DNA of 64,000 nt from Kiritimatiellia bacterium (GTDB lineage Bacteria; Verrucomicrobiota; Kiritimatiellia; RFP12; UBA1067). The stretch lies in the NCBI GenBank assembly GCA_017406465.1, contig JAFQYM010000029.1, positions 1-64,000 on the forward strand. The letters run 5' to 3'. Made by a program: the position numbers and the translations under genes. The notes under the pieces are model-generated. The model was given only the letters and a program-made list of their open reading frames with translations. It was not told where the DNA came from and made no database searches. Shown here piece after piece: positions 30,701-59,050 of this stretch (position 1 is the first letter of the stretch; each line of letters begins with the position of its first letter).

Positions 30701-31342
30701 CACAAGCGGGAAGTTCCGCGGATACAGGATGGCACCAGTCACGCTGTCCCAAAGGCCGGCCACGCCGTCCTTCTCGCATGGGATGAGGTTGGCGGAAAGA
30801 GCCTTGCCGTCCGCCCAGATGCGGCAGCCATATACGCGCTGGAGGACGCCGCCTTTCGAGTAGGGGGTGCCGTTCATGTTGTAGTTGAACAGATACAGGC
30901 TGTTAGCGTTCGCGCCGCCCTTCTGGTGGTTCGCATTACCCTTGATAGGCACGAACGTCCTATCGCCGACTGTGACGAAACTGTAGAGGCACTCGATGTC
31001 GTAGATGTCGCCAACGGCAGGCGCGATGCCCGTGTCGGTGGACCCCCCCGTCCAGTCTGCGCGGAACTTCTTGTTCACATACGAGATGCTCTCGGAGGAG
31101 TTGCTGTCGCCGTCGCCCGTCGCCGCGCCGAAAACACCGGATTGGGTGTCGGTCTGCGCGGTGACGGCAAGGCGGACGAGCATCCGCGTGTTCGCCGGCG
31201 TCCCTACCACACCCGTATCGACGTATGTGGTCTTGTTCGTCGATTCGACGTATTCGACGAACCGGTCGGGCAACTCGGCAAAGGCCGCAACCGCGAAAAG
31301 CGTGGCGCAGACCGCCACCATCCATTGATACCATCTTACCAT
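27752..31342 (-). CDS. Secreted double beta-helix surface protein with choice-of-anchor Q domains
   Basis: 1196 residues. Signal peptide MVRWYQWMVAVCATLF...; an N-terminal lectin-like domain (about 22-200) opening with FVEYVESTNKTTYVDTG and ending GVAGLWDSVTG, a module common in gut bacterial surface proteins; first right-handed beta-helix (about 337-647); choice-of-anchor Q-like segment ending GGAFDIGAYEYV (about 657-694); Ig/PKD-like strand domain (about 700-790); second beta-helix (about 797-1130); second anchor-Q-like segment ending DIGCYEYN followed at once by the tail GTGLLIFVR. The two helix halves look like an internal duplication. ATG 31342 is chosen by match to the paralogue at 37606 although the frame opens at 31378. 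Confidence 0.83.
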   Translation of the reverse strand: MVRWYQWMVAVCATLFAVAAFAELPDRFVEYVESTNKTTYVDTGVVGTPANTRMLVRLAVTAQTDTQSGVFGAATGDGDSNSSESISYVNKKFRADWTGGSTDTGIAPAVGDIYDIECLYSFVTVGDRTFVPIKGNANHQKGGANANSLYLFNYNMNGTPYSKGGVLQRVYGCRIWADGKALSANLIPCEKDGVAGLWDSVTGAILYPRNFPLVASASDNPGVKVENGAVYALLTQTSDSDGGTLATAGSSWVMAGATAAVAPAPNAGLQSEYTTNHEGFGNRRTYAGATFQFAMPAWPVDVAVAYSDAACLPRVHDLNPYIEAAAPGSTLRLASGTYTLSAQVCLTNGVSLSGQGMDATILTPEPGLANRLIYMTAAASKLGDLAVLGCTNNLESGNSVYMTAGTLDGVRVGQGFSYKNNGWKGVGIYMAGGTVTNCLVDSNVAMNSGSGSADGIGIYIAGNALVTDCAITGNGRDNGEVKGCGVYVGGAGTVRDCRIAGNWSKGQSYGGCGGCGLYLNNNSGVAERCVIAGNAVSGVIVNSGTVRNCLVHGHATTKSGFESGVYLSGNNAKFYNNTVVGNTSATAFSGLRMTGGTAANNIIYGNGTDGDILVAGGTFRNNIVGAATYTGGTVAGNLATDPRFADAANEDYTVGFDSPAVDAGETIAGVADDIGGTARPQGGAFDIGAYEYVADASTLQAAVIVEQGECGTSGTVAATARAAGGSGSYTYAWHLDGVLLEGETGATLSVAASSIGTGRHTVRLVVTDAVDDSLTAEYTYAGAWTVKPAKVYVSKSGSDTYPYDTAGKAARSFEDAIGALYVAPSVESEVSIGEGTFDCAAAVSMATPITIRGAGRDATVLNFSGLPSNRRAFELSHSSAVLRDLTVTGCTNALAGSAIYMTANARVENVRSTRNAFLTTGSGNGNQGTGLYMTAGVATNCVLDSNAHMSNSGSGDGVGLYISGGLAVDCEIYGNVRLNNKGGNRNEAKGVGAYVEGTGKILRCSIHENGLKISSETAYDNYGMGLYLNKASASADNCAIWSNGVQGVWILVGALRNSLVWGHRTSHADYPAGIRLNGSSASLYNCTAAGNTAAAAARADLYMTAGTAKNNIAVAATVSGGTSANNLFNVNPNFKNALAGNFRLSAGSPAIDAGDNDAWSGLAASCDLDGNDRIKRKVVDIGCYEYNGTGLLIFVR

Positions 31343-31378
31343 TTCAATGGTTCCTTTCATCTTCAGTTTTTGTGACAC

Positions 31379-34300
31379 CTATCGTACCATTATAAATGTT
31401 CCCAATCCCCTGCCACGCAACCACCAGATGCTTCCAGCCGTGCCGCTCCAGCACGGGTAGGTCGCGCTGTTGTTGATGTTAGTGCCACCGTCAGCCGAAA
31501 TCGCCCCTGCCGAGAATTCGGCGCGGTTCGCGTCCGTAATCTCGGTCGCCGTCACCTTCGCGGGGACGACGCCCGTCGCATAGAGCGCGTCAATCTTCGC
31601 CGCGTCGAGCTTTTCGCAGACGAGGATACGCCCGCCACCACCACCGCCGCCGTTGTTCGTGTTGTTGCCACCATCCGCGCTGACCGCCGCGCCCGCGGCA
31701 TTGACGAACTTCGAGCAGCTGATCCAAATTCCGCCGCCTGAACCGCCGCCACACGAGCCTCCCGCCTGCGTGCCGTTGGCGCTGATCCGTCCGGCGTTCG
31801 AAATCTGCCCCGTGACATCGATGCGAAGTGCGCCGCCGCCGAACGAGCCGTCCCAGTTGCCGCCGGGGCTGCCCGGCAGATAGGGCCGCAGCGCATCGCC
31901 GTAAGTATTCTTGTTGCCGTAGTCGGTCACAAGGGCGGGTTTGCCGTTGTAGCCGCCGCCGAAGCCGCCGTAGGCGCCGCCGTTGTAGGAGCCGCCCATG
32001 TCATTGTAGGAGTAATAGACATTCACGCCGCCGATCGACGAACGTCCCCATCCACCGCAGTCGGAGTGGAGAACGCCCGTCGCGCCGACTGTGAGCGTCC
32101 CCGCCGCGACCTTGCATGGCGAACCGGAGAGCCGTTCACCGTAGATGGCGAGCTCGCCGTCCACCGTCATCGCGCCGCCGGCCGAAACAAGCGCCGACGG
32201 GATGCGCCAAAGCGCAGGCGACGCCTTCGCACCAGGCGCAGTTAGGTCAAGGCGATAGCCGCCATTGACCGTCACGGACGCGCCCTCGGCGATTGTGAAG
32301 GCACCACCCGCGACAGCCTTGGCATCGGCCGCCGAGTCGCGGCGACCCGCCACAAGCGTCCCGGCGACGGTTATGTCGCCCGACGCCACGACGCCGCAGT
32401 CGTGCCAGTCGTAGAGCGAAACCGATTCTGGATAGAGACGCGGATCCCACGAGGTCGTGGCATACGAGCCCTCTGGCAGGATGGAGAGCGAGGCCCCGGA
32501 GGCGACGGATAGCGACTTCACGTTGAAGACAAGACCCGCCGAGACGCTGACGGAGGCTCCAGTGCCGATGACCACGTCGCTCTTCGGTCCCGGGACCTTG
32601 CCCGTTGACCAGTTCGCGTCGTCGAGGAAGCTTGCGCCGTCGCCTTCCCCGGTCCAGGTGGCCGTGCCGGCGTCGTCCGAGACGAATACCGCCGCGACGC
32701 GTAGCGCGCCCGTGACGTTCGTCGAGAGCGTGGCGTCGTACTGGACGGCCTCGTCGATCTCGCCAGTCCATCCCGCGAAGCGGTAGCCGGAGGCGGGCGT
32801 CGCCGTAACGCTCAGCGCCGAGCCGTCGGCCTGCCAGTCGCCGCCGGCCGCGCCGATCGCGTTTGTCGTGATCGTGCCGCCCGCAGTCTCGACGCCGACA
32901 TCGACCGAGTGCTGGAGCGTCGTGAGTTTCCACGTCAGCGTGTAGTCGCCGTCAATCGTAAGAATATCGGATGTCGCCGAAGAATCGGCGACCACATCAC
33001 CCGTTCCGGTGTCCGTGAGCGTGTAGCCGACGGCGACGCGGCGCGAGCGGTTGTCGTCCGTCACGTAGGCGGTCTCCGGGGCGGCGATGGGAATCACTTC
33101 GCCGTCGTCGAATACCTGCGGGCCGTAGGCGGGCGTGGGCGAGCCGAGGTTCGCGGGGTCGCCGGCGACGGTGAGCGTCCTCTTCCCGGCGGTGTTGATG
33201 AGGTAGTAGGCCGTGCCCGGCCAGCCCCTGGTGTATGTGCCGACGACGCCCGTGCCGCCCTCGACGGAGACGCGCGCGCCGAGCTTGTCAGAAAGTTCCG
33301 TGACGGTCACGTCGGCCGGGGCCTCGTGCGTCGCGAAGAGTTCATCGACCTGCTCGGGCGTCAGCCCCTCGCAGATGGCGATGCGCCCGCCGCCGCCGCC
33401 GCATTTCCTGTTGCCGCCGTCCGCTAAGACTTGGCAGTTGTCGCCAGCGTTGAAGGCGTCGCAGACAACCCAGATCGAGCCACCGGCCGCGCCGCCCTTG
33501 CTGTTGGCGTCCTGTCCGGTGGCGATGAGGCCGCCCTCGAGGTCGAGCGTGGCGCAGTCGAGGCGGATGGAGCCGGAGCCGCGGTTCCCGCCGTCGCCGC
33601 CCTTGCGGCTTCCGGGGAACATCGGCGTGAGCGCGTAGTCGTAAACCCTCGTCGTCTTTGTCGGCGTGCCGTATACGTCAACATTGTTGGCGTTCCCGTT
33701 GCCCGCGCCGCCGAGGCCGCCGTGGCTGCCGCCGTCGTAGCTGTCGCCCGTCTGGTGACCGCCGGGGCAGCAGGAGTAGGTGCGGTCGCCGGAGACGCCC
33801 TGTGCGTTGAAGCTCCCGTATCCGCCGAAGAACGAGGTGATGCAGCCGCCTTCGCCCACTTCGACGTCATTGAGGTCGAGCCAGACGGCGACGCCGGTGC
33901 GGAAGTCGTTGCCGACCTGGAGGAAGTTGTGGACCTTGGTCGCCGTCGGCGCGCGGACGCGGGTCGTGCCGTCGACCTTGAGGAAGTTGGAGCCCCTGAA
34001 GAACTCCTGCGGGTTGTCGAACTCGATGACGCCGCCGTCAACGGCCTGCGAGGCGTCGGGGACGAAGTCGAACGGGTAGCCAGCGATGACCTGGAAGGCG
34101 CCGTTGACGATGTCGAGGTCGCCGGCGACGTTCACGCGCGTCGGGCAGCGCGCCGCCGTGCCGCCCACGAAGACCGCGCCGCCGCTGTTGCCGTTCGCGT
34201 AGCTGCGGTTGTAGCTGTCGAGGACCACGTCGCCAAAGACGTCGAGGCCGACGGGCTCCGTGCGCGTCTCGTCGTATGACACAGAAAGGTAGTATGCGTA

Positions 34301-37300
34301 GTTGCCGTTCTGGTCGGGGTCCCAGTATCCGGCGGGGTTGTTGTTGTTCTGGGTGCCGCCGTCGTATCTGGCGTAGCGGGCGCCGACGAGGAGGACTGCG
34401 TTCGAGACGACGAGGTTCCCAACGGCGGCGAAGGACGGCGCGATGACGCGGCCCTTGTTCTGGGATTGGTGGAGGTTGTAGGTGGAGGTGTTCAGCAGCA
34501 CCGCCGTGTCGTTCGTGCCGGGAATGACGCCGTCTGCCCAGGCGGAGGCGTCGAACCACTCCTTGCCGACATTGCCATTGTAGGAAAGCGTGCGCGTCGC
34601 GCCGTTCGCCGCCGTCGCGCCAAAGAAGGCGCAGATGTTTTTCGCCGCGTCGCCGGAGACGGTGAGCGGGTTGTCGTAGCGGTTCGACCAGGCCACGTCG
34701 CCGTACCAGTACTGGAACTCCATGCCCGGCGTCGTCGTCGAAGCCGTCAGCGTGACCGGCGAGGTCGCAGTCGTGTAGTCCGCCGACTTCGCGATGGTCG
34801 CGCCCGCATCGTTCACAGCCGTCGCCGTTACCGGATAGCTCTCCGCGTAGTGCCAGGTGATCTCGGCGCGGCCCGCCGGGAAGGTGTAGTTGAAGGAACT
34901 TGTGCCGTCCGTCACGGTCGTGGTGGAGACGACCGTCGCCGCGTCGCCCGCCGCGTATTCCGTGAGCGTGTAGCCCGTGCAGGTGAAATGGATACCGTTC
35001 GAGGTTACGTCCGTCGGCGCGGTCAGCGTCACGGGATCGTCCGCCGCGTAGCCGTCGCTGTCGCCGAGCGCGGGCGAATAGCCGTCAAGCGCTTCCGCCG
35101 CGTCGCTCGCGACGGTGAGCCGTCCGTCGTGCGCAACGGAGACAACCGTAACGCCAATCGTCTTTGCCGCAGTCGTGAATGCCCCGCCGTCGGGAAGCGC
35201 TCCGTATGCGAGAAGCGTAGTATCTATCGAAGCCGACCCAGCGCTCCAATCGGCAAGCGGGATGTCCGCGAACGTCCCGACCGTCGAATAGATCGGGCTG
35301 TCGTCCGCAACGGACAGCGTAATCGAGCCGCCTTTGCCGTTCGTCTTGAAGAGATTGGTCGCCTCCTTGCTGCCGCAACGGATCGGCGCCGACGAATATC
35401 CGCCGGCCGGGACGTGGAATGTCAGCACGGCTGCGGACGCCGCGCTCCCGTATGGCATGAAACTCACGTTGTTCTGGGCGGTGTCGATCAACGGATGGTC
35501 GCCGAAGAATTCAAAGGTGCCGCCCGAACCGTTGGCGTTGAGTCCGACCCAGGAGCGCGCCACGTAAGTGGAATTGTCGATTACGAAAACACCACTGCCG
35601 CCGATGTAGAAGAAATGCGCACTCGCCGTCGAGTTGTCGTGAAGTTCGAACCGGGCCCCTTTCCGATAGAGTCTGAAGTCGCTGCCGCTCTGGTAGTAGT
35701 CGGAGCCGTTGACAAGGGAGAATACGAACCCCTGACCGAATTCCAGAGCCGTGGAACCGTTTTTGAGCGCGGCGTTGTCAAGCGTGAGGGAGCCAAGCGG
35801 CCCATTGATATTTATCGAGGTCGCCGTCAGCACCTTGTTCGTGCCGGTCGCCGTCGCGCCCTTGAAGGTTACATCGACGCCGCAGGCGTTCGCGGCGTCC
35901 GTCAGGTTCTTCGTCGCGTGGAGGTCGAGGGTACCGACTTTTTCGTTGTCTGAGATCGTGACAGTGATGTTCGTCCCGGCAGGGAAGACGGCCGTGGAAT
36001 TGCCGGTGCGGGGATAGCCGTACGCGGAGGGGAGATCGCTCGCCCAGTGCGCCGTGTCGTGCCAGTCGCCGTCCCAGTCGCCGTTCACCGCCTGCCAGGT
36101 GTAGGTCGTGGTGTCCTTGGTGGCGGCGTTGAAGATGTCCGTGGCGTCGGTGTAGTTCGTGACGCCGCCTTCACCGATGTCGAAGAGCCGCCACTGGAAA
36201 TAGTAGGTCACCTCGCCGTTGTCCTCAGGGGTGGAGAAGGACGCGGAGATCTTCGAGGGCGCGGAGTCGGGAACGACCGTCGCGACATTCTCCATCGTCG
36301 CGGCGTTGTTCGCTGTGCCGCACCAGAGTTCGACGTGCGTCGCGTCGCCGTTGGAGGCGAGCGCCGTCACGGTTCCGGTCGCCGTGATGACGTTGCGGGC
36401 GACCGTCGTAGCCTTCTGGTTCAGGAGGCAGCCGGGACCGGTCGCCGTAGGCGTGGCCGCAGTGCCGGAGCCGATTGTCGCCCAGAGCGCGACGGACGAT
36501 GACGTGTCCGTTCCCGTTTCGTCCGAAAGGCGCTGCGTCGATGTCGTGTCGTCGCCGTTCGTCGCCTTCACGGAGGTTATGCCGTTGAGCGAGTAGAAGA
36601 GCATGCAGTCGGTCTGCGTTCCGGCGGAGAGCGCGGGCGAGGACTGGAGGACGTTGAAGCGGAAGTAGCCGTTGGGCGAGTTGCCATTGGAGCGGAAGGC
36701 CTGCTGGCCCATCCACTGGATCGGCGGCGCGGCGAAGCCGCCCTCCGGGACGACGAAGTCGAAATCGAAGTGGCTCGTCATGTTCGCGTTGTTGACGCTG
36801 TCCTTGAACTCGCCTGTCCCAGAACCCTTCAGCATGGGGTTGCCGCCCTTGAAAATGATGCGCCCGCCGCCAGGCGTGGCAGTTCCAAGGTTGGCAGCGC
36901 CCTTCACCAGCAGCGCCGCGTTGTCGATGGAAAGGAGCGTGTTCGGACCGTTGATGCTGAGATTGGTGCTGATCTTCATCGTTGCGCCGTTCGAAAGCAG
37001 GTTCGTCGCCGTGTTCTTGAACGCGAATTCGCCGCTGGCGGTCCATGTCGCGTTGTCAACGGCAAGGAGGGTGCCGACACTGCTGTCGGCGTCAATCCAG
37101 CCGGAGGAAACGACCGAACCGCTCAAAATGGAGACCCTTGCCGCCTTCTTGACGGTGGTATTCCCAAGGCGCAGGTCGGAGTTGTTCTTCACTGTCAGCA
37201 CGGCGCCGCTGCCGAGCACCATGGCCTTTCCGCCATCGACGCGGATATGGTCGAACTCGATAGTGTTGTTCTCGTTGTCGACTTCCCACGCGTTCTTGAG

Positions 37301-37606
37301 GTCGAGCCGCGTCTCGGCGGTCGGGTCGGCCGCGTAGAATCGGACGTTCGCACCCGCGAGGACTTTCAGCTGATTCACTGCCTCGTAGTTGTTGGTCGCG
37401 CCAAGCTCCACCTCGGCGGTGCAGTCCGCCGGGAAAATCGCCCGGTCGCCGCCTTGGGGATACTTCGTCGTCTGGCCCCAGTTGGCGGGCGTGCGCCAGC
37501 CGTGGTCGTCACCGCCCTCGCCGGTCCAGGTATAGTCCGTGGCGAAAGCCGCTGCGGAGAAAAGCGTGGCGCAGACCGCCACTGTCCAATGATACCCTCT
37601 TGTCAT
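31379..37606 (-). CDS. Giant secreted glycine-rich beta-helix surface protein
   Basis: 2075 residues. Signal peptide MTRGYHWTVAVCATLFSAAAFA, then three W-T-G...N-W modules (about 25, 504 and 1645), a repeat-like region with InlB-type strands (FQYWYGDVAW near 970), and two related glycine-rich beta-helix blocks (about 1270-1420 and 1870-2060) each ending in a G-rich run followed by RIAICEGL or RILVCEKL. No enzyme domain is recognised. The tail is GLGTFIMVR. Two in-frame ATGs (37612 and 37606) share the Shine-Dalgarno GAAAGGA; 37606 is the one conserved in the paralogue and has better spacing. Promoter TTGCAA-17-TATACT upstream. Likely outer-surface structural or adhesive protein (inference). 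Confidence 0.82.
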   Translation of the reverse strand: MTRGYHWTVAVCATLFSAAAFATDYTWTGEGGDDHGWRTPANWGQTTKYPQGGDRAIFPADCTAEVELGATNNYEAVNQLKVLAGANVRFYAADPTAETRLDLKNAWEVDNENNTIEFDHIRVDGGKAMVLGSGAVLTVKNNSDLRLGNTTVKKAARVSILSGSVVSSGWIDADSSVGTLLAVDNATWTASGEFAFKNTATNLLSNGATMKISTNLSINGPNTLLSIDNAALLVKGAANLGTATPGGGRIIFKGGNPMLKGSGTGEFKDSVNNANMTSHFDFDFVVPEGGFAAPPIQWMGQQAFRSNGNSPNGYFRFNVLQSSPALSAGTQTDCMLFYSLNGITSVKATNGDDTTSTQRLSDETGTDTSSSVALWATIGSGTAATPTATGPGCLLNQKATTVARNVITATGTVTALASNGDATHVELWCGTANNAATMENVATVVPDSAPSKISASFSTPEDNGEVTYYFQWRLFDIGEGGVTNYTDATDIFNAATKDTTTYTWQAVNGDWDGDWHDTAHWASDLPSAYGYPRTGNSTAVFPAGTNITVTISDNEKVGTLDLHATKNLTDAANACGVDVTFKGATATGTNKVLTATSININGPLGSLTLDNAALKNGSTALEFGQGFVFSLVNGSDYYQSGSDFRLYRKGARFELHDNSTASAHFFYIGGSGVFVIDNSTYVARSWVGLNANGSGGTFEFFGDHPLIDTAQNNVSFMPYGSAASAAVLTFHVPAGGYSSAPIRCGSKEATNLFKTNGKGGSITLSVADDSPIYSTVGTFADIPLADWSAGSASIDTTLLAYGALPDGGAFTTAAKTIGVTVVSVAHDGRLTVASDAAEALDGYSPALGDSDGYAADDPVTLTAPTDVTSNGIHFTCTGYTLTEYAAGDAATVVSTTTVTDGTSSFNYTFPAGRAEITWHYAESYPVTATAVNDAGATIAKSADYTTATSPVTLTASTTTPGMEFQYWYGDVAWSNRYDNPLTVSGDAAKNICAFFGATAANGATRTLSYNGNVGKEWFDASAWADGVIPGTNDTAVLLNTSTYNLHQSQNKGRVIAPSFAAVGNLVVSNAVLLVGARYARYDGGTQNNNNPAGYWDPDQNGNYAYYLSVSYDETRTEPVGLDVFGDVVLDSYNRSYANGNSGGAVFVGGTAARCPTRVNVAGDLDIVNGAFQVIAGYPFDFVPDASQAVDGGVIEFDNPQEFFRGSNFLKVDGTTRVRAPTATKVHNFLQVGNDFRTGVAVWLDLNDVEVGEGGCITSFFGGYGSFNAQGVSGDRTYSCCPGGHQTGDSYDGGSHGGLGGAGNGNANNVDVYGTPTKTTRVYDYALTPMFPGSRKGGDGGNRGSGSIRLDCATLDLEGGLIATGQDANSKGGAAGGSIWVVCDAFNAGDNCQVLADGGNRKCGGGGGRIAICEGLTPEQVDELFATHEAPADVTVTELSDKLGARVSVEGGTGVVGTYTRGWPGTAYYLINTAGKRTLTVAGDPANLGSPTPAYGPQVFDDGEVIPIAAPETAYVTDDNRSRRVAVGYTLTDTGTGDVVADSSATSDILTIDGDYTLTWKLTTLQHSVDVGVETAGGTITTNAIGAAGGDWQADGSALSVTATPASGYRFAGWTGEIDEAVQYDATLSTNVTGALRVAAVFVSDDAGTATWTGEGDGASFLDDANWSTGKVPGPKSDVVIGTGASVSVSAGLVFNVKSLSVASGASLSILPEGSYATTSWDPRLYPESVSLYDWHDCGVVASGDITVAGTLVAGRRDSAADAKAVAGGAFTIAEGASVTVNGGYRLDLTAPGAKASPALWRIPSALVSAGGAMTVDGELAIYGERLSGSPCKVAAGTLTVGATGVLHSDCGGWGRSSIGGVNVYYSYNDMGGSYNGGAYGGFGGGYNGKPALVTDYGNKNTYGDALRPYLPGSPGGNWDGSFGGGALRIDVTGQISNAGRISANGTQAGGSCGGGSGGGIWISCSKFVNAAGAAVSADGGNNTNNGGGGGGGRILVCEKLDAAKIDALYATGVVPAKVTATEITDANRAEFSAGAISADGGTNINNSATYPCWSGTAGSIWWLRGRGLGTFIMVR

Positions 37607-37637
37607 TTCCATGATTCCTTTCAATTTCTTAAGATAA

Positions 37638-37666
37638 AGTATACCAATTACGCCGTCACATTGCAA
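37638..37666 (-). promoter_or_regulatory. Promoter of the giant glycine-rich protein gene
   Basis: Minus strand TTGCAA (37661-37666), 17-nt spacer, TATACT (37638-37643) with an extended TGG just before it. Leader of about 25 nt with GAAAGGA. Confidence 0.65.
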
Positions 37667-37688
37667 CACCATTGCACAGAATGGAATG

Positions 37689-37769
37689 CTATCTCAAAAT
37701 CGGCTCCGCAGGCGCGAAAAACACAAGCGCGGTGCAGACCGCCACCGTCCCCTGATACTCTCTTGCCAT
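37689..37769 (-). pseudogene. Signal-peptide relic of a third paralogue
   Basis: ATG 37769, preceded by GAGGAAAGGGG, opens a 26-codon frame MAREYQGTVAVCTALVFF... that stops at 37689. It aligns with the signal peptides of the two surface proteins downstream (MTRGYHWTVAVCATLF and MVRWYQWMVAVCATLF). All that follows the signal peptide is missing. It lies between the GH2 giant and the glycine-rich giant. Confidence 0.75.
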
Positions 37770-37882
37770 CCCCTTTCCTCTCCTCATCTTCATTTCATTT
37801 TCTACGACATTGTATGCCAAATCCCTGCTTCAGGGCAACAAGCAAACAGCGCATTCTCGTGTTAAGTCCCCGGGTATGATTA

Positions 37883-40800
37883 CTAGAAAGTCACAGTGTC
37901 CGAAGTGTCCTTGCCCTGCACTCTGATTTCAACCCCGGGCGTGAAGTCCCTTGCCGTAAATACCGCGATATGGTCGACGACAGCCACCGTCTCGGCTGGA
38001 GTCTGACTATCTCCAATGTACATTGACAAGGTGCCGTCTTTGGCGTCGTTGGTGTAGCACTTGATCTTTCTATCGGTCGTCTTCGTGTAGTCCTTGCCAC
38101 AGATATGGACGAACTTATCCTTCGAATTCCATTCCGCCTTGTAGATGTAGAACGTGTCCTTTTTCGTGACGTGGTCGCGTTCCACGAGACCCTTGTTGTT
38201 CAGATATTTCAATTCGTCGTTGGTTGTCGCGTTTTCGCCATCAAGGCACTCCGTGTAGCCCTCTTTTCTGCTTGACACCGCGATGTCGAACAACTGCCAC
38301 TGACCAGTGAAGAGAAGTTGCGGGTAGTTTCGGATTGCGGCGATGTGTCCTTCATGCAACCACATCTGGTACTCGATGTCGTGCCTTGGGTTGTTGCCGG
38401 AGGTCGTCGTGCTCAGGAAGTTCGTGGAATGGCAATGCTGCGTTCCGCCGCATCCATACTCCGAGAGCGCAAGCGGCTTGCTGCGGTCTGTTATGGTGCT
38501 CTTTATGCGCTTGTTCAACTGAGATGAAGGGTCGTTGATCGTCTTGTCGATGTACCATCCGACATAGAGGTTGCAGCCGAACCAATCCACATCAGGGTTG
38601 TTGTAGTACCCAGAGGGGTCGCTGTAGCTGTGCGACATGACATAGCCGACCATGCGCTCCGTGTCCATAGACTTGATGAGGTCGTAGTATCCCTCTATCT
38701 TCTCCTTGCCAAAGGCCTTGTCATCCGTAGTTGTCTCGTTGCTGAGTCCCCAGAACATGATGCATGGGTGGTTAAAGTGCTGTTCGACCATTTCAATGTA
38801 TTGTGTTTCGAGGTGCGTGTAGTAGTCCGAGGGCATCGTCGACTGGAGCTTGTTGACGCATGGCACTTCGGTCTGGACGATGATTCCGAGCTGGTCGCAC
38901 CGGTCGTACACCTCCTTCGGGTGCGGATAGTGCGCGAGGCGGATGAAGTTACACCCCAGCTCCCGTATAATGGCGAACTCCTGGTCGTAGTCGCTGTCGG
39001 TGAGCGCGTTGGCCTTCCCCTCCACGTCGTCGTGCATGCAGACGCCCCTCAGGAGGTAGGGTTCCCCGTTGAGCAGGAAGCCGGTGTAGGTCTCGCCATT
39101 TACCGTCTCATTGATGACGTATTCGTAGTACCGGAATCCGTATGGGCGCTGATACCTGTGGTAAAGTTCCCCGTCCTTGTAGATTTCAAGGGTCACCGTG
39201 TAGAGATGCGGGTTTTTCGTTCCGTTCCACAATTTCAAGTCGCTTCCTGCGATGGTGGTCGTGAAGGTCTGCGCTCTTCCCTCGCTTGCCACCGTGTTTG
39301 TCCAGGCGTACGAATCATCGGAGATGATGCACTTGAGGGACGCGCCGGCCGGGACCTCGGTCTCGACATTGATCGTTGCGTTGGTCGTCGCGGAGGAAGC
39401 GGACACCGTCGAGGTGATGTGGAATCCGTCGTAGCCGTATTTCATCGCAGGAAGGACCGGGCTCGTGAACAGCTTGACGTTGCCGAGCGTGGCGTTGAAG
39501 TTGAAGTCGCCGGCCGCCGGAGCCAAGGAGTTCCTCGTGGTGTTGCACAGTGCCACGCGGATGTTGTTAATTCCACGGTGGACGTATTCGCTTATATCAA
39601 CGAAGAACGCGTTGTAGCCGCCCCAGTGCGTCCCGACATTCACGTCGTCGACGTAAATGTCCGCGCTCTGGTCGGCGTGCTGGAACCACAGGTAGGTTGG
39701 CTGAGCCGCGCTGAGCGTTATGGAGGTGTCGAACGAGAACGTTCCTTTGGAGTAGCTGGACGAGTGTCCGTTTATTCCGTTGACGGAATACGGCGTAGTG
39801 ATGGTGTTGCCGTTGTATCTCCATGTCGTGAGGTCCTTGTTCGACTTCTGGAACGGAGTCTCATGCACGTACACGCAAGTCTGGCTTACTGTCGGGCTCG
39901 TATGGTCCTGATAGGTGGAATACGCCTCGACGATAGTGTCCTCATTGATGGAAATTGGTCCCGTGTACAGGGCGAAATCGCCTGTCTGCCCAAGTCTATA
40001 GTAGATTTCGGCACCTTCCGTTGGGCATTCCAGTTCAATCGTATCGCCGAAAAACGATACTTCGGGCGGCAGCAGCAAAACATCCTCGCACACGAGCCAT
40101 CCCGTAGGTATGCCATTGACGCCTGTCGTCCAGGAAGTTACGTCTGCGGCCTTGACGAATGCGCCGTCGCCAGCCACATTTTTAACCCATCCTTCCAAGC
40201 ACTTGGAGTTGTTGAACCCACTTGTGGCAAGGCATGTGATTTGACTTAGGAGTCCGCATCCCTCGAACATGTGTCCATAACACTCAGCCACCAAGGTCGT
40301 GGCGTTGAGGACAGGAGCCTCTGTGATGGCACATTGTTCGAACATGTACCAGTAGCATCCCTTGGCAAGCGTAGTGGCTGGAAGTTCGGGGGCCTTTGTC
40401 AATGATGTGCAATAGCTAAATAGGGCGCGGTAACAGTAGTCCTTTAGCGTCGTTGCCGGGAGAACGAGGTTTTCCGCCGAAATCACCGGAGCTTTTTTGA
40501 ACAACGAGCAGAATATGTAGCTGCCGCCCTGGAAGGTCGTGCTTTCGGCAAAGTTGTCGCCATCCAGAAGACTCATGATGTTACCTTCGATGTCGTATGT
40601 CGCGGTTCCTCCCTCGAATCCGGAATAATTATTTTTGTCCGTGGCGTATGTCGTGTTGCTCCCCCTGAATCTGACCAAGTTGCCCTGTGCCACGAAAATG
40701 GTCGCCCCTTCAGACGTGGCGGTTAGGGAAGTCCATGCGCCGTTGTCGATGCTGTAATCGATGGTCTTGGTCGCGTTGCCAAACGCTTTCCAACTGATTG

Positions 40801-43800
40801 TTCCAGGTGTGAGCACTCTGAATGTAAGGTAGTCGGCGCTGTAGTCATGTTCCACAGGTGGTATTGTATGCGCCATCCCCATAATCAAGATTACTGTACC
40901 CATCGGGCGGTTCTCAACGGTCATTTCCACCGAAGGTTCGCTTTCCACCGGCAAACCGGCGATGGTATAGACGGCTACGGCCTGATAGGTGTCAGTCGGA
41001 TTGTCCCCCGGCCTGCGCCAATTCACAATCAGCGTTCCGTCTGCGCCTCCTTCGATCACCACGCCGTTCTTCAGCCAGTAGTATGACGTCGCGCCATCCG
41101 CGGACGCCGTGAGCGTGACCGTCTTTCTGACAGAAACCTTCGTTGCGGTCGGGTGGACGTCCGGCGCTGACGCTTCGGAAATGAATTCCGCACTCGGCAT
41201 GTCAGTGGTAGTTAGCGTCTTGTCCCCATCCATGACGATAGAGACTGTCGCTTCGCCCGTAAGACGGTAGCTGGATTCGGCGGCGAAGGTCGCTACGACG
41301 GTGGCATTGCTGAAGACCGTGTAGACACCAGCGTTGCCAACAACCGCCACGTCGTTGGTCGTCACCGAGACGAGCGTCATGTGGTAGGACGTGAGGTCTG
41401 GAATCGTCAAGTTCACGGTCGGGCGCAAGGTGGTGAATGGACCGACAACGTTCGAGCGATGAACCACATGTCCTTCGTTCTCCATGCGCAGACGGAGGTA
41501 ATATTCCGTCTCGGACTCCAGCCCAGAGATTGTGAGAGGGGCGTACCATTGTGTCCCCTGGTTCTCGACACTATCCGAAGACAGAAAAGTCTCGAAATTG
41601 TCAGCCGACGCCTCCAGTCGGATTGTCGCGGTAGTCGCACCAGTGCCAGGGGAATGAAGATACCCCGTAGCGGTAATCATCGTGGTGCCAACCTGGACCG
41701 GACGAGACAAATCATTTGTGACGATATGGCCAGAAGGTGCACCGGGAACTTTTGTCCGGAACTCAACCGGGTCAGTTTCGAAATATACTGGGGGCGCTAG
41801 GTTGTTCGTGAGCGACGCGCGGACGAAGTAGGCCGTGTTGAACGTCAGGGCGGACGCAGAGCCAGTAAGCGTTCCGGCCTCCGTGAGTGTTCCGCTGGCA
41901 TGGAATGTCCAGTAGGTCCCCTCCTCGAAGTCCTCGTCGTCGCAGACTTGGAAGACGCCCAACACACTCGTCGCGCCTTCACCAAGCCCCGTCACGTTCG
42001 CGGCAAAGGTCGCAGTGTGTTGCTCGGTGGCTGTCACAGAGACGGTCGCCTCCGGCGCCTTGGGGTTGACAAATGGGATCGTTTCAATCTTAGGCGAGAG
42101 CGCGCTCACCACTGCATTCGTAGCGAGGACCCGAAGATAGACCGTCCGGTCCTGATCGGACAACATGAACGTACCCGTCCCGCGGCCGATCACGCCCGTA
42201 GCGGACGACAGGGCATTCGTATGGTCAAGATCTCCCTTCCGGAAGCCCCAGACCACAAGAACATCCGCGTAATCGTAGCCATCGCCAGCCCACGCAACAC
42301 GATAGCCGACGGTCGTGAGCCCATGATTCGGACCATCTGGATCATCGACTCGACTGAGGCTTTCAAACGCGACGGCCGGCTCGTACATACCCTGCCCATT
42401 ACCTTGCACATCGTAGCGGAAAATCACGACACCGTTGCCGCCGTTGCCACCCTGCTGGCAGCCCGATTTCGTGCTGCCGCCACCGCCACCACCGCCCTTG
42501 CCGTTTTCACCGCTGTTAGCGTATTCAGAGCCCGGGATATCGGTGTTCTCCATACCACCAGAACCACCACCGCCAAGACCACCGCCGCCGCCGGTGCCAC
42601 CACCGCTTTTGTCGCCGCCACCGCCGCCACCGCCTGCGTAATGGGTCGAAGTGCCGGAAATGGAAGATTGGATGCCATCGCCGCCGCCGCCGCCAGAAAT
42701 CATAGAGCCAATGGAGATCGAGCCGCCAGTCGCCGAAGCGCCGCCGCCGCCGCCACTAACTTTCTTATTACCATCTTGGCTACCCAAGCCGCCGTCATTG
42801 CCCTGTCCTGTTCTTCCAGAACCCGCGGGATTATTCATATGGGAGGCGCCGCCACCGCCACTTCCGCCATCCACACCCGCGCGGCAAGCATCATTTCCAG
42901 AGACAGCGCCATTTCCGCCAGCACCGCCGCCGAATGCGTGGGCGTTGTTGATTATTGAACCGCCAGCCAAAGTAACGAAGGAATCACCGCCATTCTCACC
43001 ATACTGAGCGGAGGACGCGGAAGCAATGCCTCCCGCACCGACCGTCACCTGATAGGTCGCGCCGCCCGTCACGGGAAATGCATCGTAGTAGAGCAGGCCG
43101 CCCGCTCCGCCACCGCCGCCGCCGTTGTAGCCGCCGGGGCCACCGCCCGCAACGACAAGCGCCTCAACGCTGGTTGCGTAGGATGGCGGAACGAATTCGA
43201 ACGTGTCCGTTCCGTCTCGCGCGATGGTGAACGTGTGCACAATGCTGTCACCGTCGCGCTTTACATCGCCGCCCGAACCGATTTCGCCCGCGCCGCTCGT
43301 CGTGAACGTGCCTTCCACGACAGTGGAGTCGAGCGGCTCTGGAAGATTGTTCACTGCTTTAATCTTGAACTGGTAGGGCGTATTGGGAAGAAGCCCCACG
43401 AGGGAGGCAGAAAAGGTATCGTTCGCGGCCAAACCGCCTGCAATTTCCGTCCAAAGGTTCGTTTCAGTGGCGCCATCTGGCCACACCTTGGCGAGAACGC
43501 GGCACGCCGTCGACGTGCCACCGCAGACCGAAATAGATCCCGAGAATTGCGCGAACGCCGCACCGGAGTCGGCAAGTGCAAGCGACGCAACAGGATTGGC
43601 TGCCTCCGCGAAAGTCTGCACAGCTCCATAGTCGATGAAGGCATCGGCCTTCTCCTGCACATAGGAGGCCTTCATCCAGTCCGCGCTTGGCGTAAAAGGA
43701 CCAACACGCACCTCGTCCATGTCGCCAAAGAAGGTCCGCTCGCCTCCCGCGAAACCACCGCCGATATACAAAATACCAGTTCCTGTAACCTGCTTGTAGC

Positions 43801-44830
43801 CAAAATCGCCTTTCGTGCTTTGAACGCCATTCGTATAAAGGACATAGTTACTAACATCTCCAGTTCCTTTTTTTGGATAAGCTGCGTTCCCGTAAGCATA
43901 AATGACATCTATCTTGGTCCATTGATTCTGGACAAGCGGGACTGTTCCTTTGGCTGTCGTTGGCATCGTTTTGTCGGTTGTGTCATTTCCCCAGATTCGC
44001 ATATCGGTGCTGTTGGCTGCCAACTGGAGATGCCAAGCAGGATCGGTCGTGGCTGTTTTGCGCCCGATAAGAACGTTGTAACGAACGCCCTTATTCTGTG
44101 TCGTCGTAATCGTGCCGACCGGGCGCATCCAGAACGATACGACAAAATTTGTGCCGAGCGTGTCGAGTGCGGACAGTGCCGCAGATGAATTGTTGATCTT
44201 GATTGAAGTATCGCTTTTCTGGTTCTCCGTACTGGTGATTCTGCGCGAGGTTCCGACAACGCCATCCTTCGTGTCGCCCTCTGGACCCGAAAGGCCATTC
44301 AAAGCGTTTGTCGTAGAGTCGCTAATGCTGGCAGATGTTCCATAAGCAGTCTCATTCAAGTGCCAGACACCAACATAGTTCGTGAAGGCGTTGCCGTCGC
44401 AAACCTCCTTGCCGGACTTGGACGAGCGGTAGAACATTGCAAACTCGGTATTGTTCTCAAGCGACGGGAGAGAGACCCAGACGAGCGATGTTCCATTGGG
44501 ATTCCACGTGTCGATATCGTATGCGAGCGGCGTTCCGTTCTCATCCACAAAGGCGATGTCGCGGACGGAGTCCTGAAGATCCGTTCCCGAGAACATCATA
44601 TCCGAGTATTGGAATCCGTCGATTCCGCTTTCGGAGATTCGCACGAGGACTGGGAAGTTCTCGAGCGCCGCAGAACCAGTATAGTTCGTGACGGTCAGCA
44701 CTGTGCCGCGGGAGAACCCATCGGGCTTGATCGCCTCAAGGTTCGAGATCGCGGCCCGTGCGGACAGCGCGAGCGCATGCGCGGTGACCGTAACCGCCAA
44801 AGCGGCTGTCATCAGTTTTTTAACGTTCAT
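37883..44830 (-). CDS. 2315-residue composite surface GH2 glycosidase
   Basis: Domains in order, positions rough: signal peptide 1-27; DUF2341 (30-155, NFPVLVRISESGIDGF); LamG/concanavalin-like (155-395, MDEVRVG); fibronectin-like (405-500); ALK-type glycine-rich domain (540-800); further Ig/fibronectin-like strands (800-1300); BspA-like repeats (1410-1545, with the ELPATTLAKGCYWYMF type unit); chitobiase-type beta domain (1583-1657); GH2 sandwich and TIM barrel (1660-2310). Catalytic glutamates are seen in FWGLSNE (acid/base, near 2028) and LSEYGCGG (nucleophile, near 2123), so the hydrolase should be active, probably on beta-galactosides or related sugars. Shine-Dalgarno GGGGGAG. Follows the GH109 gene by 52 nt. 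Confidence 0.88.
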   Translation of the reverse strand: MNVKKLMTAALAVTVTAHALALSARAAISNLEAIKPDGFSRGTVLTVTNYTGSAALENFPVLVRISESGIDGFQYSDMMFSGTDLQDSVRDIAFVDENGTPLAYDIDTWNPNGTSLVWVSLPSLENNTEFAMFYRSSKSGKEVCDGNAFTNYVGVWHLNETAYGTSASISDSTTNALNGLSGPEGDTKDGVVGTSRRITSTENQKSDTSIKINNSSAALSALDTLGTNFVVSFWMRPVGTITTTQNKGVRYNVLIGRKTATTDPAWHLQLAANSTDMRIWGNDTTDKTMPTTAKGTVPLVQNQWTKIDVIYAYGNAAYPKKGTGDVSNYVLYTNGVQSTKGDFGYKQVTGTGILYIGGGFAGGERTFFGDMDEVRVGPFTPSADWMKASYVQEKADAFIDYGAVQTFAEAANPVASLALADSGAAFAQFSGSISVCGGTSTACRVLAKVWPDGATETNLWTEIAGGLAANDTFSASLVGLLPNTPYQFKIKAVNNLPEPLDSTVVEGTFTTSGAGEIGSGGDVKRDGDSIVHTFTIARDGTDTFEFVPPSYATSVEALVVAGGGPGGYNGGGGGGAGGLLYYDAFPVTGGATYQVTVGAGGIASASSAQYGENGGDSFVTLAGGSIINNAHAFGGGAGGNGAVSGNDACRAGVDGGSGGGGASHMNNPAGSGRTGQGNDGGLGSQDGNKKVSGGGGGASATGGSISIGSMISGGGGGDGIQSSISGTSTHYAGGGGGGGDKSGGGTGGGGGLGGGGSGGMENTDIPGSEYANSGENGKGGGGGGGSTKSGCQQGGNGGNGVVIFRYDVQGNGQGMYEPAVAFESLSRVDDPDGPNHGLTTVGYRVAWAGDGYDYADVLVVWGFRKGDLDHTNALSSATGVIGRGTGTFMLSDQDRTVYLRVLATNAVVSALSPKIETIPFVNPKAPEATVSVTATEQHTATFAANVTGLGEGATSVLGVFQVCDDEDFEEGTYWTFHASGTLTEAGTLTGSASALTFNTAYFVRASLTNNLAPPVYFETDPVEFRTKVPGAPSGHIVTNDLSRPVQVGTTMITATGYLHSPGTGATTATIRLEASADNFETFLSSDSVENQGTQWYAPLTISGLESETEYYLRLRMENEGHVVHRSNVVGPFTTLRPTVNLTIPDLTSYHMTLVSVTTNDVAVVGNAGVYTVFSNATVVATFAAESSYRLTGEATVSIVMDGDKTLTTTDMPSAEFISEASAPDVHPTATKVSVRKTVTLTASADGATSYYWLKNGVVIEGGADGTLIVNWRRPGDNPTDTYQAVAVYTIAGLPVESEPSVEMTVENRPMGTVILIMGMAHTIPPVEHDYSADYLTFRVLTPGTISWKAFGNATKTIDYSIDNGAWTSLTATSEGATIFVAQGNLVRFRGSNTTYATDKNNYSGFEGGTATYDIEGNIMSLLDGDNFAESTTFQGGSYIFCSLFKKAPVISAENLVLPATTLKDYCYRALFSYCTSLTKAPELPATTLAKGCYWYMFEQCAITEAPVLNATTLVAECYGHMFEGCGLLSQITCLATSGFNNSKCLEGWVKNVAGDGAFVKAADVTSWTTGVNGIPTGWLVCEDVLLLPPEVSFFGDTIELECPTEGAEIYYRLGQTGDFALYTGPISINEDTIVEAYSTYQDHTSPTVSQTCVYVHETPFQKSNKDLTTWRYNGNTITTPYSVNGINGHSSSYSKGTFSFDTSITLSAAQPTYLWFQHADQSADIYVDDVNVGTHWGGYNAFFVDISEYVHRGINNIRVALCNTTRNSLAPAAGDFNFNATLGNVKLFTSPVLPAMKYGYDGFHITSTVSASSATTNATINVETEVPAGASLKCIISDDSYAWTNTVASEGRAQTFTTTIAGSDLKLWNGTKNPHLYTVTLEIYKDGELYHRYQRPYGFRYYEYVINETVNGETYTGFLLNGEPYLLRGVCMHDDVEGKANALTDSDYDQEFAIIRELGCNFIRLAHYPHPKEVYDRCDQLGIIVQTEVPCVNKLQSTMPSDYYTHLETQYIEMVEQHFNHPCIMFWGLSNETTTDDKAFGKEKIEGYYDLIKSMDTERMVGYVMSHSYSDPSGYYNNPDVDWFGCNLYVGWYIDKTINDPSSQLNKRIKSTITDRSKPLALSEYGCGGTQHCHSTNFLSTTTSGNNPRHDIEYQMWLHEGHIAAIRNYPQLLFTGQWQLFDIAVSSRKEGYTECLDGENATTNDELKYLNNKGLVERDHVTKKDTFYIYKAEWNSKDKFVHICGKDYTKTTDRKIKCYTNDAKDGTLSMYIGDSQTPAETVAVVDHIAVFTARDFTPGVEIRVQGKDTSDTVTF

Positions 44831-54078: not shown

Positions 54079-57942
<3,864 letters not shown>

Positions 57943-57964: not shown

Positions 57965-58050
57965 TGGAGCCGGGGATCGGATTCGAACCGATGCGTCCTT
58001 GCGGATCCTGATTACAAATCAGGCGTAGTCAACCACTGTACCACCCCGGC
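57965..58050 (-). tRNA. tRNA with anticodon TGT (Thr) and a long variable arm
   Basis: 86 nt including an encoded CCA. Acceptor GCCGGGG pairs with CCCCGGC, discriminator T. Anticodon stem CCTGA/TCAGG with loop TTTGTAA gives anticodon TGT (genomic 58014-58016). T arm ATCGG-TTCGAAT-CCGAT is canonical. The variable region is 14 nt and folds as TCC-GCAA-GGA, a class II feature normally limited to Leu, Ser and Tyr tRNAs. G1-C72, C2-G71 and anticodon G35 U36 agree with threonine identity. Promoter at 58064; purL starts 22 nt downstream. Confidence 0.9.
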
Positions 58051-58111: not shown

Positions 58112-59050
58112 TCAAGTGAGCTGATATGGCTTGAATGACGCCCTGTCGGCTGGCGTAGTACCGCGCACATAGGCGTTTACGAGAGACTGCGCAAGCGGGA
58201 TATCCGATTCAGAGACGAGGACGGGAATCGCCGCCGTCGGCCCGGGGATTCCGTTCGTCGGCTTCAATATCGCGGCAAATGAGCCATTCTCAAGCAAAGC
58301 GTTTTCATTGGCGTCGCGGCCGAGTATCACGGAGCTACCACCTGGCAGACGAAAGCGCCGCCCGACAACGAGGAGATCGAGGAGCGTGCGATTGACTGCG
58401 CCAGTCGCCTTATCGCGAAGGCCCTCGTGCTCCATGAGGTCACGGAGCTTGCGGCCGTATGCATCCTCGGTCAGCTTGCAGCCGCCGGCGGGCGACGGGT
58501 AGTCTGTTATTCCGAATTCCTTTGCGAGAGCGATCTGACGCTCGCGCGAACGGCCGTGGATGTCGAGAAGCTTCTCGCGGTCAAGCTTGCCCTCTATTTC
58601 AGGAATAGTGGGCTCGAGCAACTTTGCAGACATCGGACGGATGAGTCGTCCTTTAAGTCCAGAGGATTTCTCGACCGTGCAGAGCGACTGCTTGTTCTGC
58701 GACATCGGCCTCTGCCCCATCACCTCGCCTGTCGAAACGAAGTCGAAGCCGAGCGATGTCATCAGCTCGCCTGCGCGGCGTATCATCGTCGCGTGGCAGT
58801 CGATGCATGGGTTCATCGCGCCACCAAAGCCGTGAGGAGGATTTTCAACAAGAGACACCTCGTCTTCCGTGAAATCAAGGACGTGAAGCTTCACGCCAAG
58901 GGCAGCGGCGGCCTTGCGCGCGTTCGCAGACGAGAAGAACGGAGTCTCAAAGCACACGCCCTCCACCTCGGCGCCCGCTCTCTGAAGAACACGCACGGCA
59001 AGCTGGCTATCAAGCCCGCCGCTCATCAGGGAAAGTCCTCTGCAGCTCAT
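58112..59050 (-). CDS. PP-loop ATPase related to tRNA sulfurtransferases (ThiI/MnmA-like)
   Basis: 312 residues. N-terminal PP-loop LMSGGLDSQLAVRVL (about 8-22), then NPCIDCHATMIRRA and a paired cysteine in PSPAGGCKLT, the CxxC/C pattern of sulfur-transferring ATP-pyrophosphatases. The C-terminal part (about 225-312: FRLPGGSSVILGRDANEN) resembles the NFACT-R RNA-binding domain found at the end of such proteins. It likely thiolates or otherwise modifies tRNA; the exact position modified is unknown. Starts in an ATGA overlap with the small upstream gene; the tRNA gene lies just downstream. Confidence 0.78.
   Translation of the reverse strand: MSCRGLSLMSGGLDSQLAVRVLQRAGAEVEGVCFETPFFSSANARKAAAALGVKLHVLDFTEDEVSLVENPPHGFGGAMNPCIDCHATMIRRAGELMTSLGFDFVSTGEVMGQRPMSQNKQSLCTVEKSSGLKGRLIRPMSAKLLEPTIPEIEGKLDREKLLDIHGRSRERQIALAKEFGITDYPSPAGGCKLTEDAYGRKLRDLMEHEGLRDKATGAVNRTLLDLLVVGRRFRLPGGSSVILGRDANENALLENGSFAAILKPTNGIPGPTAAIPVLVSESDIPLAQSLVNAYVRGTTPADRASFKPYQLT

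Follow-up and report, generated by a model that had tools for sequence, protein, structure and literature searches.

The tRNA-Thr(UGU) gene of a gut Kiritimatiellae genome has very probably crossed from class I to class II architecture, and its product is a faithful and apparently the only tRNA-Thr(UGU) of that genome, its charging with threonine being predicted from the identity elements. A long variable arm is the textbook mark of leucine, serine, tyrosine and selenocysteine tRNAs. The gene lies in the 64,000-nucleotide stretch of DNA analysed here (the window), in which ARAGORN placed a minus-strand tRNA-Thr(tgt) at precisely 57965-58050 and Rfam matched the tRNA family over 57968-58050 with 58.9 bits against a threshold of 29 bits; for both it was the one tRNA in the window. 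Parsing by stems gave the acceptor stem GCCGGGG/CCCCGGC, the anticodon arm CCTGA-TTTGTAA-TCAGG, the T arm ATCGG-TTCGAAT-CCGAT followed by U73 and the encoded CCA, and the variable region ATCCGCAAGGACGC, that is A-UCC-GCAA-GGA-CGC, with a 3-bp stem TCC/GGA and a GCAA loop (Table 1). A variable region of at least 10 nt with a stem marks class II architecture, and this one has 14 nt and a stem of 3 bp. The initial annotation had described the region in this way from the letters, together with the TGT anticodon and a threonine-type acceptor, and ARAGORN (anticodon at position 35), Rfam and the stem parsing (GCC...GGC acceptor) bear this description out; the long variable arm is real and confirmed.

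Table 1. Features at and around the tRNA-Thr(UGU) gene (positions in the window)
Feature	Position	Strand	Basis or detail
tRNA-Thr(UGU) gene, encoded CCA, 86 nt	57965..58050	(-)	ARAGORN, Rfam, genome tRNA typing
Variable region, 14 nt	57993..58006	(-)	parsing by stems, comparison of arm-bearing genes
V stem and GCAA loop	58005-58003 paired with 57998-57996; loop 58002-57999	(-)	
Anticodon TGT, reads ACA	58014..58016	(-)	ARAGORN, position 35
D arm, 3-bp stem	58025..58041	(-)	G10-C25, U11-A24, A12-U23; C13/C22 unpaired
Discriminator U73	57968..57968	(-)	genome tRNA typing
purL (FGAM synthase)	54079..57942	(-)	starts 22 nt downstream of the tRNA
ORF upstream of the tRNA	58112..59050	(-)	HUP domain (tRNA_Me_trans/ThiI-like), sub-threshold NFACT-R match

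All stems are paired, with compensatory changes, in seven distinct arm-bearing copies from the genus. Across the whole cloverleaf six pairs change on both sides, a number reached by 1 of 500 shuffles, and the V stem is paired in 7/7 genes with one compensatory change (C-G to U-A in G115). Two of its three pairs are invariant in these genes and hence uninformative for or against pairing, and the 3-bp V hairpin taken alone could be due to chance. Thermodynamic folding of the bare sequence was modestly better than chance (z -1.66; 14 of 200 shuffles were equally good); the minimum-energy fold misplaced the D arm, and the V hairpin was present in both reported structures. It is scarcely credible that the gene is a pseudogene or an assembly artefact, because it recurs in 27 genomes from several studies and hosts, its stems are kept paired as described, and ACA is in normal use with no alternative Thr(UGU) gene found; this holds even though the source is a MAG, certain copies lack an encoded CCA, and some matches of a wider pattern are assembly gaps or tRNA remnants, none of them among the examined genes of the genus.

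The genome is 83% complete, with 3.5 Mb on 102 contigs. It gave 35 tRNA matches, and ARAGORN typed 35 tRNAs, among which are three threonine genes, GGT and CGT, both class I, and TGT. The initial annotation had left the other tRNA-Thr(TGT) genes to be counted, and none was found besides this one among the 35 tRNAs, but in a genome 83% complete a second Thr(UGU) gene could be missing, which weighs against reading this one as the sole working tRNA. A mechanically chosen set of 27 long ORFs in the window has 1314 threonine codons, and ACA accounts for 159 of them (12.1%), near the shares of CCA (12.5%) and GCA (12.7%) within their own codon families. ACA is thus used normally, and no gene other than this tRNA was found to carry the matching anticodon.

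In E. coli the threonine identity pairs are G1-C72 and C2-G71. Both pairs are present here, GCC...GGC is invariant in the seven arm-bearing genes, and the anticodon TGT at position 35 is of the NGU kind expected of tRNA-Thr. Position 73 is U, neither the discriminator G73 of serine tRNAs nor the A73 of leucine tRNAs, and in the same genome U73 stands on all three threonine tRNAs, G73 on the three serine tRNAs and A73 on the four leucine tRNAs. The genome's threonyl-tRNA synthetase (ThrRS) matched editing, catalytic and anticodon domains, and no TGS domain was matched. ThrRS would recognise the acceptor end (G1-C72, C2-G71) and the anticodon bases G35-U36 and would ignore the variable arm. SerRS and LeuRS would be expected to reject a tRNA with a threonine acceptor stem, an arm of only 3 bp and U73 in place of G73 or A73.

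The initial annotation had posed two possibilities, an unusual but faithful tRNA-Thr or a tRNA with altered charging, in which the arm would draw SerRS (or LeuRS) and ACA would be read wholly or partly as another amino acid. By domain search the genome's own SerRS does have an N-terminal domain, with which known SerRS bind the long arm. According to the available text of PMC9976931 the anticodon is not read by SerRS, leucine identity rests on A73, and threonine identity consists of acceptor pairs and anticodon, position 73 being usually weak; the available text of PMC7609411 has SerRS recognise the long arm together with G73. Against SerRS charging stand U73 in place of G73, the threonine acceptor, and an arm of 3 bp in 14 nt compared with 18 and 22 nt in the two own serine variable regions that were parsed.

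Decoding of ACA was assessed by aligning ThrRS, SerRS and PurL and scoring, at each ACA codon, the residue in genomes with a class I tRNA. The 10 arm-bearing genomes contributed 10 PurL, 7 ThrRS and 6 SerRS sequences; the split ThrRS of G133 and the partial or weak SerRS of G008, G019 and G044 were left out, and 28 of 30 PurL loci were used, without L321 (G050) and L322 (the second piece of G001). The 32 scorable ACA codons, in 29 columns, gave mean shares of 0.52 for threonine, 0.07 for serine and 0.05 for leucine, and the 16 ACA cells in columns conserved to at least 60% comprised 14 threonine, 1 glycine and 1 valine, with no serine or leucine. At ACA codons of genomes with class I tRNA the threonine share was similar, 0.56 in the genus and 0.57 in other genera, which speaks against altered charging. 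Two points weigh against the faithful reading: these counts are small and partly non-independent, and the share of 0.52 is below the 0.61–0.64 at the other threonine codons of the arm-bearing genomes. Moreover, the comparison is blind to low-level mischarging. As far as class I genomes can tell, ACA is probably read as threonine, and miscoding is not supported, with 14 of the 16 well-conserved cells being threonine.

Altered charging is therefore highly improbable, and that half of the earlier proposal is without support. The faithful half stands: this is the sole Thr(UGU) gene found, it has a threonine-type acceptor and U73, some arm-bearing genes of the genus have a neighbour that also adjoins Thr(UGU) genes of the intermediate and class I forms (see below), and ACA falls at threonine sites. 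The sequence points to threonine charging of the arm-bearing tRNA, and we consider it very probable that this is the genome's working and apparently only ACA tRNA, that it carries threonine and that it descended from a class I tRNA-Thr(UGU).

To see how the forms are distributed, the family's 114 genomes were scanned with a pattern matching the class I form as well as longer ones, and the forms were tallied. Among the 61 genomes of the genus (a genus of gut Kiritimatiellae), the 14-nt arm-bearing form was present in 27, including the genome studied here, a 7-nt intermediate in 12 and a class I form in 11; in the remaining 11 the scan gave no tRNA-like Thr(UGU) match. The scan of these 61 genomes showed no case of two forms in one genome, and the duplicate copies in G110 and G001 are of a single form each. 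The 7-nt variable regions read AATTACC or CATTACC, and for those intermediates whose ARAGORN sequences were inspected the D stem likewise has 3 bp. No long form was seen by the pattern scan in 53 genomes of the family's other genera; a doubtful match in G069, of another genus, contains no tRNA gene by ARAGORN. A stricter pattern matched 11 of 288 genomes of the class, all in the genus, but it requires an encoded CCA and misses genes without one, as some arm-bearing copies are. With the wider pattern, no long arm on Thr(GGU) or Thr(CGU) was found among the matches listed in the family. The named arm-bearing records are MAGs labelled Kiritimatiellae, Kiritimatiellia, Lentisphaerae, Verrucomicrobia or uncultured bacterium, with sources including goat, yak, roe deer and horse gut samples, and others with RUG isolate names. 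The initial annotation had held that relatives sharing this tRNA as their only Thr(UGU) gene would make miscoding unlikely and reduce the arm to a lineage trait. The first part agrees in spirit with the 50 genus members with a detected gene, which have one Thr(UGU) form each; the second is too simple, since the genus contains the class I, the intermediate and the class II form side by side and other phyla have the arm as well.

Blastn was used to compare the flanking sequences (up to 2.5 kb) of 22 loci and of the window. The gene ridA lies downstream of tRNA-Thr(UGU) at 6 of the 22 loci, four of them arm-bearing (L059, L128, L156, L166), one intermediate (L051) and one class I (L060); its product has 125–128 aa and belongs to the Ribonuc_L-PSP/RidA family (one copy tested). 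Because arm-bearing, intermediate and class I genes have this neighbour in common, the three forms appear to be orthologous. Moreover, arm-bearing L050 and L062 share their upstream side with L128, and arm-bearing L145 and class I L063 have 471 bases of upstream sequence in common. The remaining loci, including several arm-bearing ones, intermediate L053 and class I L061, L063 and L065, showed neither ridA nor purL, and purL is a neighbour only in one sub-lineage of the genus, that of the present genome (G000, L054, L151, L171, L177). Most simply read, one gene exists in three versions and has moved in some lineages, and the arm most likely arose within a threonine tRNA; the presence of ridA at only 6 of 22 loci and the purL neighbour of the own sub-lineage weigh against a threonine origin.

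Over 57 core positions, the nearest sequences outside the arm-bearing set were the 7-nt form (46) and one of the order's class I Thr(UGU) genes (44), and among the genome's own tRNAs Thr(CGU) matched at 39, Leu(UAA) at 38, Thr(GGU) at 32 and serine tRNAs at 28–29, a ranking that agrees with the threonine origin. Alloacceptor remoulding, in which a tRNA-Leu or tRNA-Ser gene gained a threonine anticodon and acceptor and displaced the original Thr(UGU), would draw on the likeness of Leu(UAA), which also has GCCGG and the D-arm start TGGT besides its 38/57, and on the genome's Leu(CAG), whose arm is of this kind, GCAA loop included. It is nevertheless improbable. At a locus linked to ridA, different genomes carry class I, intermediate or class II forms; the order's class I Thr(UGU) genes have a matching anticodon arm, CUGA-UUUGUAA-UCAG; outside the arm-bearing set no sequence is closer than the intermediate; and a serine source fits worst. 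Because Leu(UAA) comes close to Thr(CGU) in core similarity, a conversion event with tRNA-Leu could have contributed to the D arm or V arm. Under the threonine origin, the ancestor would be an ordinary class I tRNA-Thr(UGU) whose D stem shortened to 3 bp and whose variable loop grew, plausibly through a 7-nt stage that survives in the genus, the direction and order of these steps being conjectural. Comparison with relatives indicates that the arm was acquired recently.

A PurL tree of 24 rows (outgroup rows G064, G060, G044 and G038 left out) required 5 changes of the arm-bearing label (4–6 over bootstrap trees), and well-supported branches force at least 2. The arm-bearing rows formed one clade in 0 of 200 bootstrap trees, and constraining them together was rejected (AU p 0.00046), as was constraining arm-bearing and intermediate rows together (p 0.00018). 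This one gene tree fits repeated switching of the arm as well as an exchange of tRNA alleles or of purL itself; the trees of SerRS and ThrRS had poor resolution inside the genus. A coupling of the arm to the type of ThrRS is not supported, as both catalytic-core types occur with all three tRNA forms among 15 genus genomes (the type of the present genome with 5 arm-bearing, 3 intermediate and 2 class I genes, the other type with 2, 1 and 2, respectively). As a separate observation, the genus ThrRS loci (L233-L259) are mosaic: editing and anticodon domains stay similar, and the catalytic core is of two types about 47% identical. The own ThrRS (L243, G000:C50:46372-48054) shares 90% identity in the core with the ThrRS of G037, of another family, but only 56% in the editing domain, which suggests that the core may have been exchanged as a cassette.

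A scan of genome contigs for long-gap Thr(UGU) returned at least 117 stretches, and all counts are lower bounds. ARAGORN confirmed at least 26 complete long-arm bacterial tRNA-Thr(UGU) genes and one cut by a contig end; among the matches listed, 13 are of the Kiritimatiellae type (including the cut one), 9 are from Eremiobacterota, and Betaproteobacteria, Rhodospirillales, Bacillota, Acidobacteriota and an uncultured bacterium have one each. The other listed stretches had no tRNA called or were tRNA-Tyr, archaeal genes that seem to contain introns or assembly gaps in the sequence; in L116 and L118 the gap is runs of N, and matches in Pseudoalteromonas (L142), Paraglaciecola (L135) and Nitrosomonas (L131) had no tRNA called, the 5′ part being absent or degraded. 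In five Eremiobacterota genomes the armed gene is the only tRNA-like Thr(UGU) match among those listed. Judged by match length in 98 Eremiobacterota genomes, with ARAGORN confirmation for the fetched ones only, the variable region is 13–18 nt in 22, 11 nt in one and 6 nt in three, and most other tRNA-like matches are of class I length. Of two odd matches that were fetched, one proved to be a tRNA-Tyr and the other a further Thr(UGU) whose variable region has 21 nt. No long arm on Thr(GGU) or Thr(CGU) was seen by eye in these 98 genomes (wider pattern, encoded CCA required). In G425 of this phylum, an arm-bearing gene (L426:154-246) has the anticodon loop CCTGTAA, with C at position 33 and not the near-universal U. 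In the order of the Rhodospirillales case the 14-nt form occurs in 1 of 79 genomes, and G518 has an odd 9-nt match beside a class I gene. The Betaproteobacterial gene lies inside an array of many tRNAs, and its genome (G337), like that of the uncultured bacterium (G339), also has Thr(UGU) genes without a long arm, so the armed gene is not alone there. That array (L121 / L344, a dense one on a 6.7-kb contig of a MAG) also carries leucine genes with short variable loops, and has the look of a phage or another mobile element. Crossing of the class I/II divide has occurred repeatedly in a functional isoacceptor.

It is possible, but rather unlikely, that the arm is an allele repeatedly gained, lost or exchanged between species for an advantage; such an advantage might be escape from tRNA-cleaving toxins or phage effectors recognising tRNA-Thr(UGU), or relief from a competing synthetase. 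In that case one functional gene would occur in the genus as a natural series, in its class I, intermediate and class II states. The natural variation of the arm together with the other two forms makes class I/class II interconversion directly testable, these tRNAs are material to study the tolerance of ThrRS and SerRS, and isotype prediction by arm length can mislead. Elsewhere in the window, the ORF upstream of the tRNA is possibly a tRNA-modifying enzyme, as judged from its domain match. On the minus strand, 27755-44830 holds three very long threonine-rich ORFs (1202, 2097 and 2315 aa), the first two with similar N-termini (...VAVCATLF...AAFA); these are perhaps large surface or secreted proteins.

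Among the papers listed from an open-access library, none announces a bacterial tRNA-Thr with a class II arm in its title or the opening of its abstract, and within that scope we provisionally regard a class II tRNA-Thr as unreported. Compared with known systems, the gene agrees with class I tRNA-Thr(UGU) in anticodon, GCC...GGC acceptor and anticodon arm, and with those of the order also in U73 and, in part of the genus, in the downstream ridA, but differs by its 14-nt variable region and 3-bp D stem from their 5 nt and 4 bp. With class II tRNAs (Leu, Ser, bacterial Tyr, Sec) it has in common a long variable arm with a stem and a 3-bp D stem, and with the own tRNA-Leu(CAG) the arm size and GCAA loop; unlike them it has a threonine acceptor, anticodon and U73, and the arm is not expected to act as an identity element. 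Nematode nev-tRNAs likewise combine a long arm with the anticodon of a class I amino acid; in the available text of PMC4033280, nev-tRNA-Gly reads GGG as leucine and its expression is much lower than that of canonical tRNAs, whereas for ACA no gene but the present one was found, and it carries threonine identity elements. Allo-tRNAs and selC* tRNA-Cys are also bacterial and have long arms with non-Ser/Leu/Tyr anticodons, but, as far as the available text of PMC7609411 describes them, allo-tRNAs have 8/4 or 9/3 stems and mostly serine identity and selC* tRNA-Cys has an 8-bp acceptor stem, whereas the arm-bearing tRNA-Thr(UGU) keeps a 7/5 body of acceptor and T stems with threonine identity elements.
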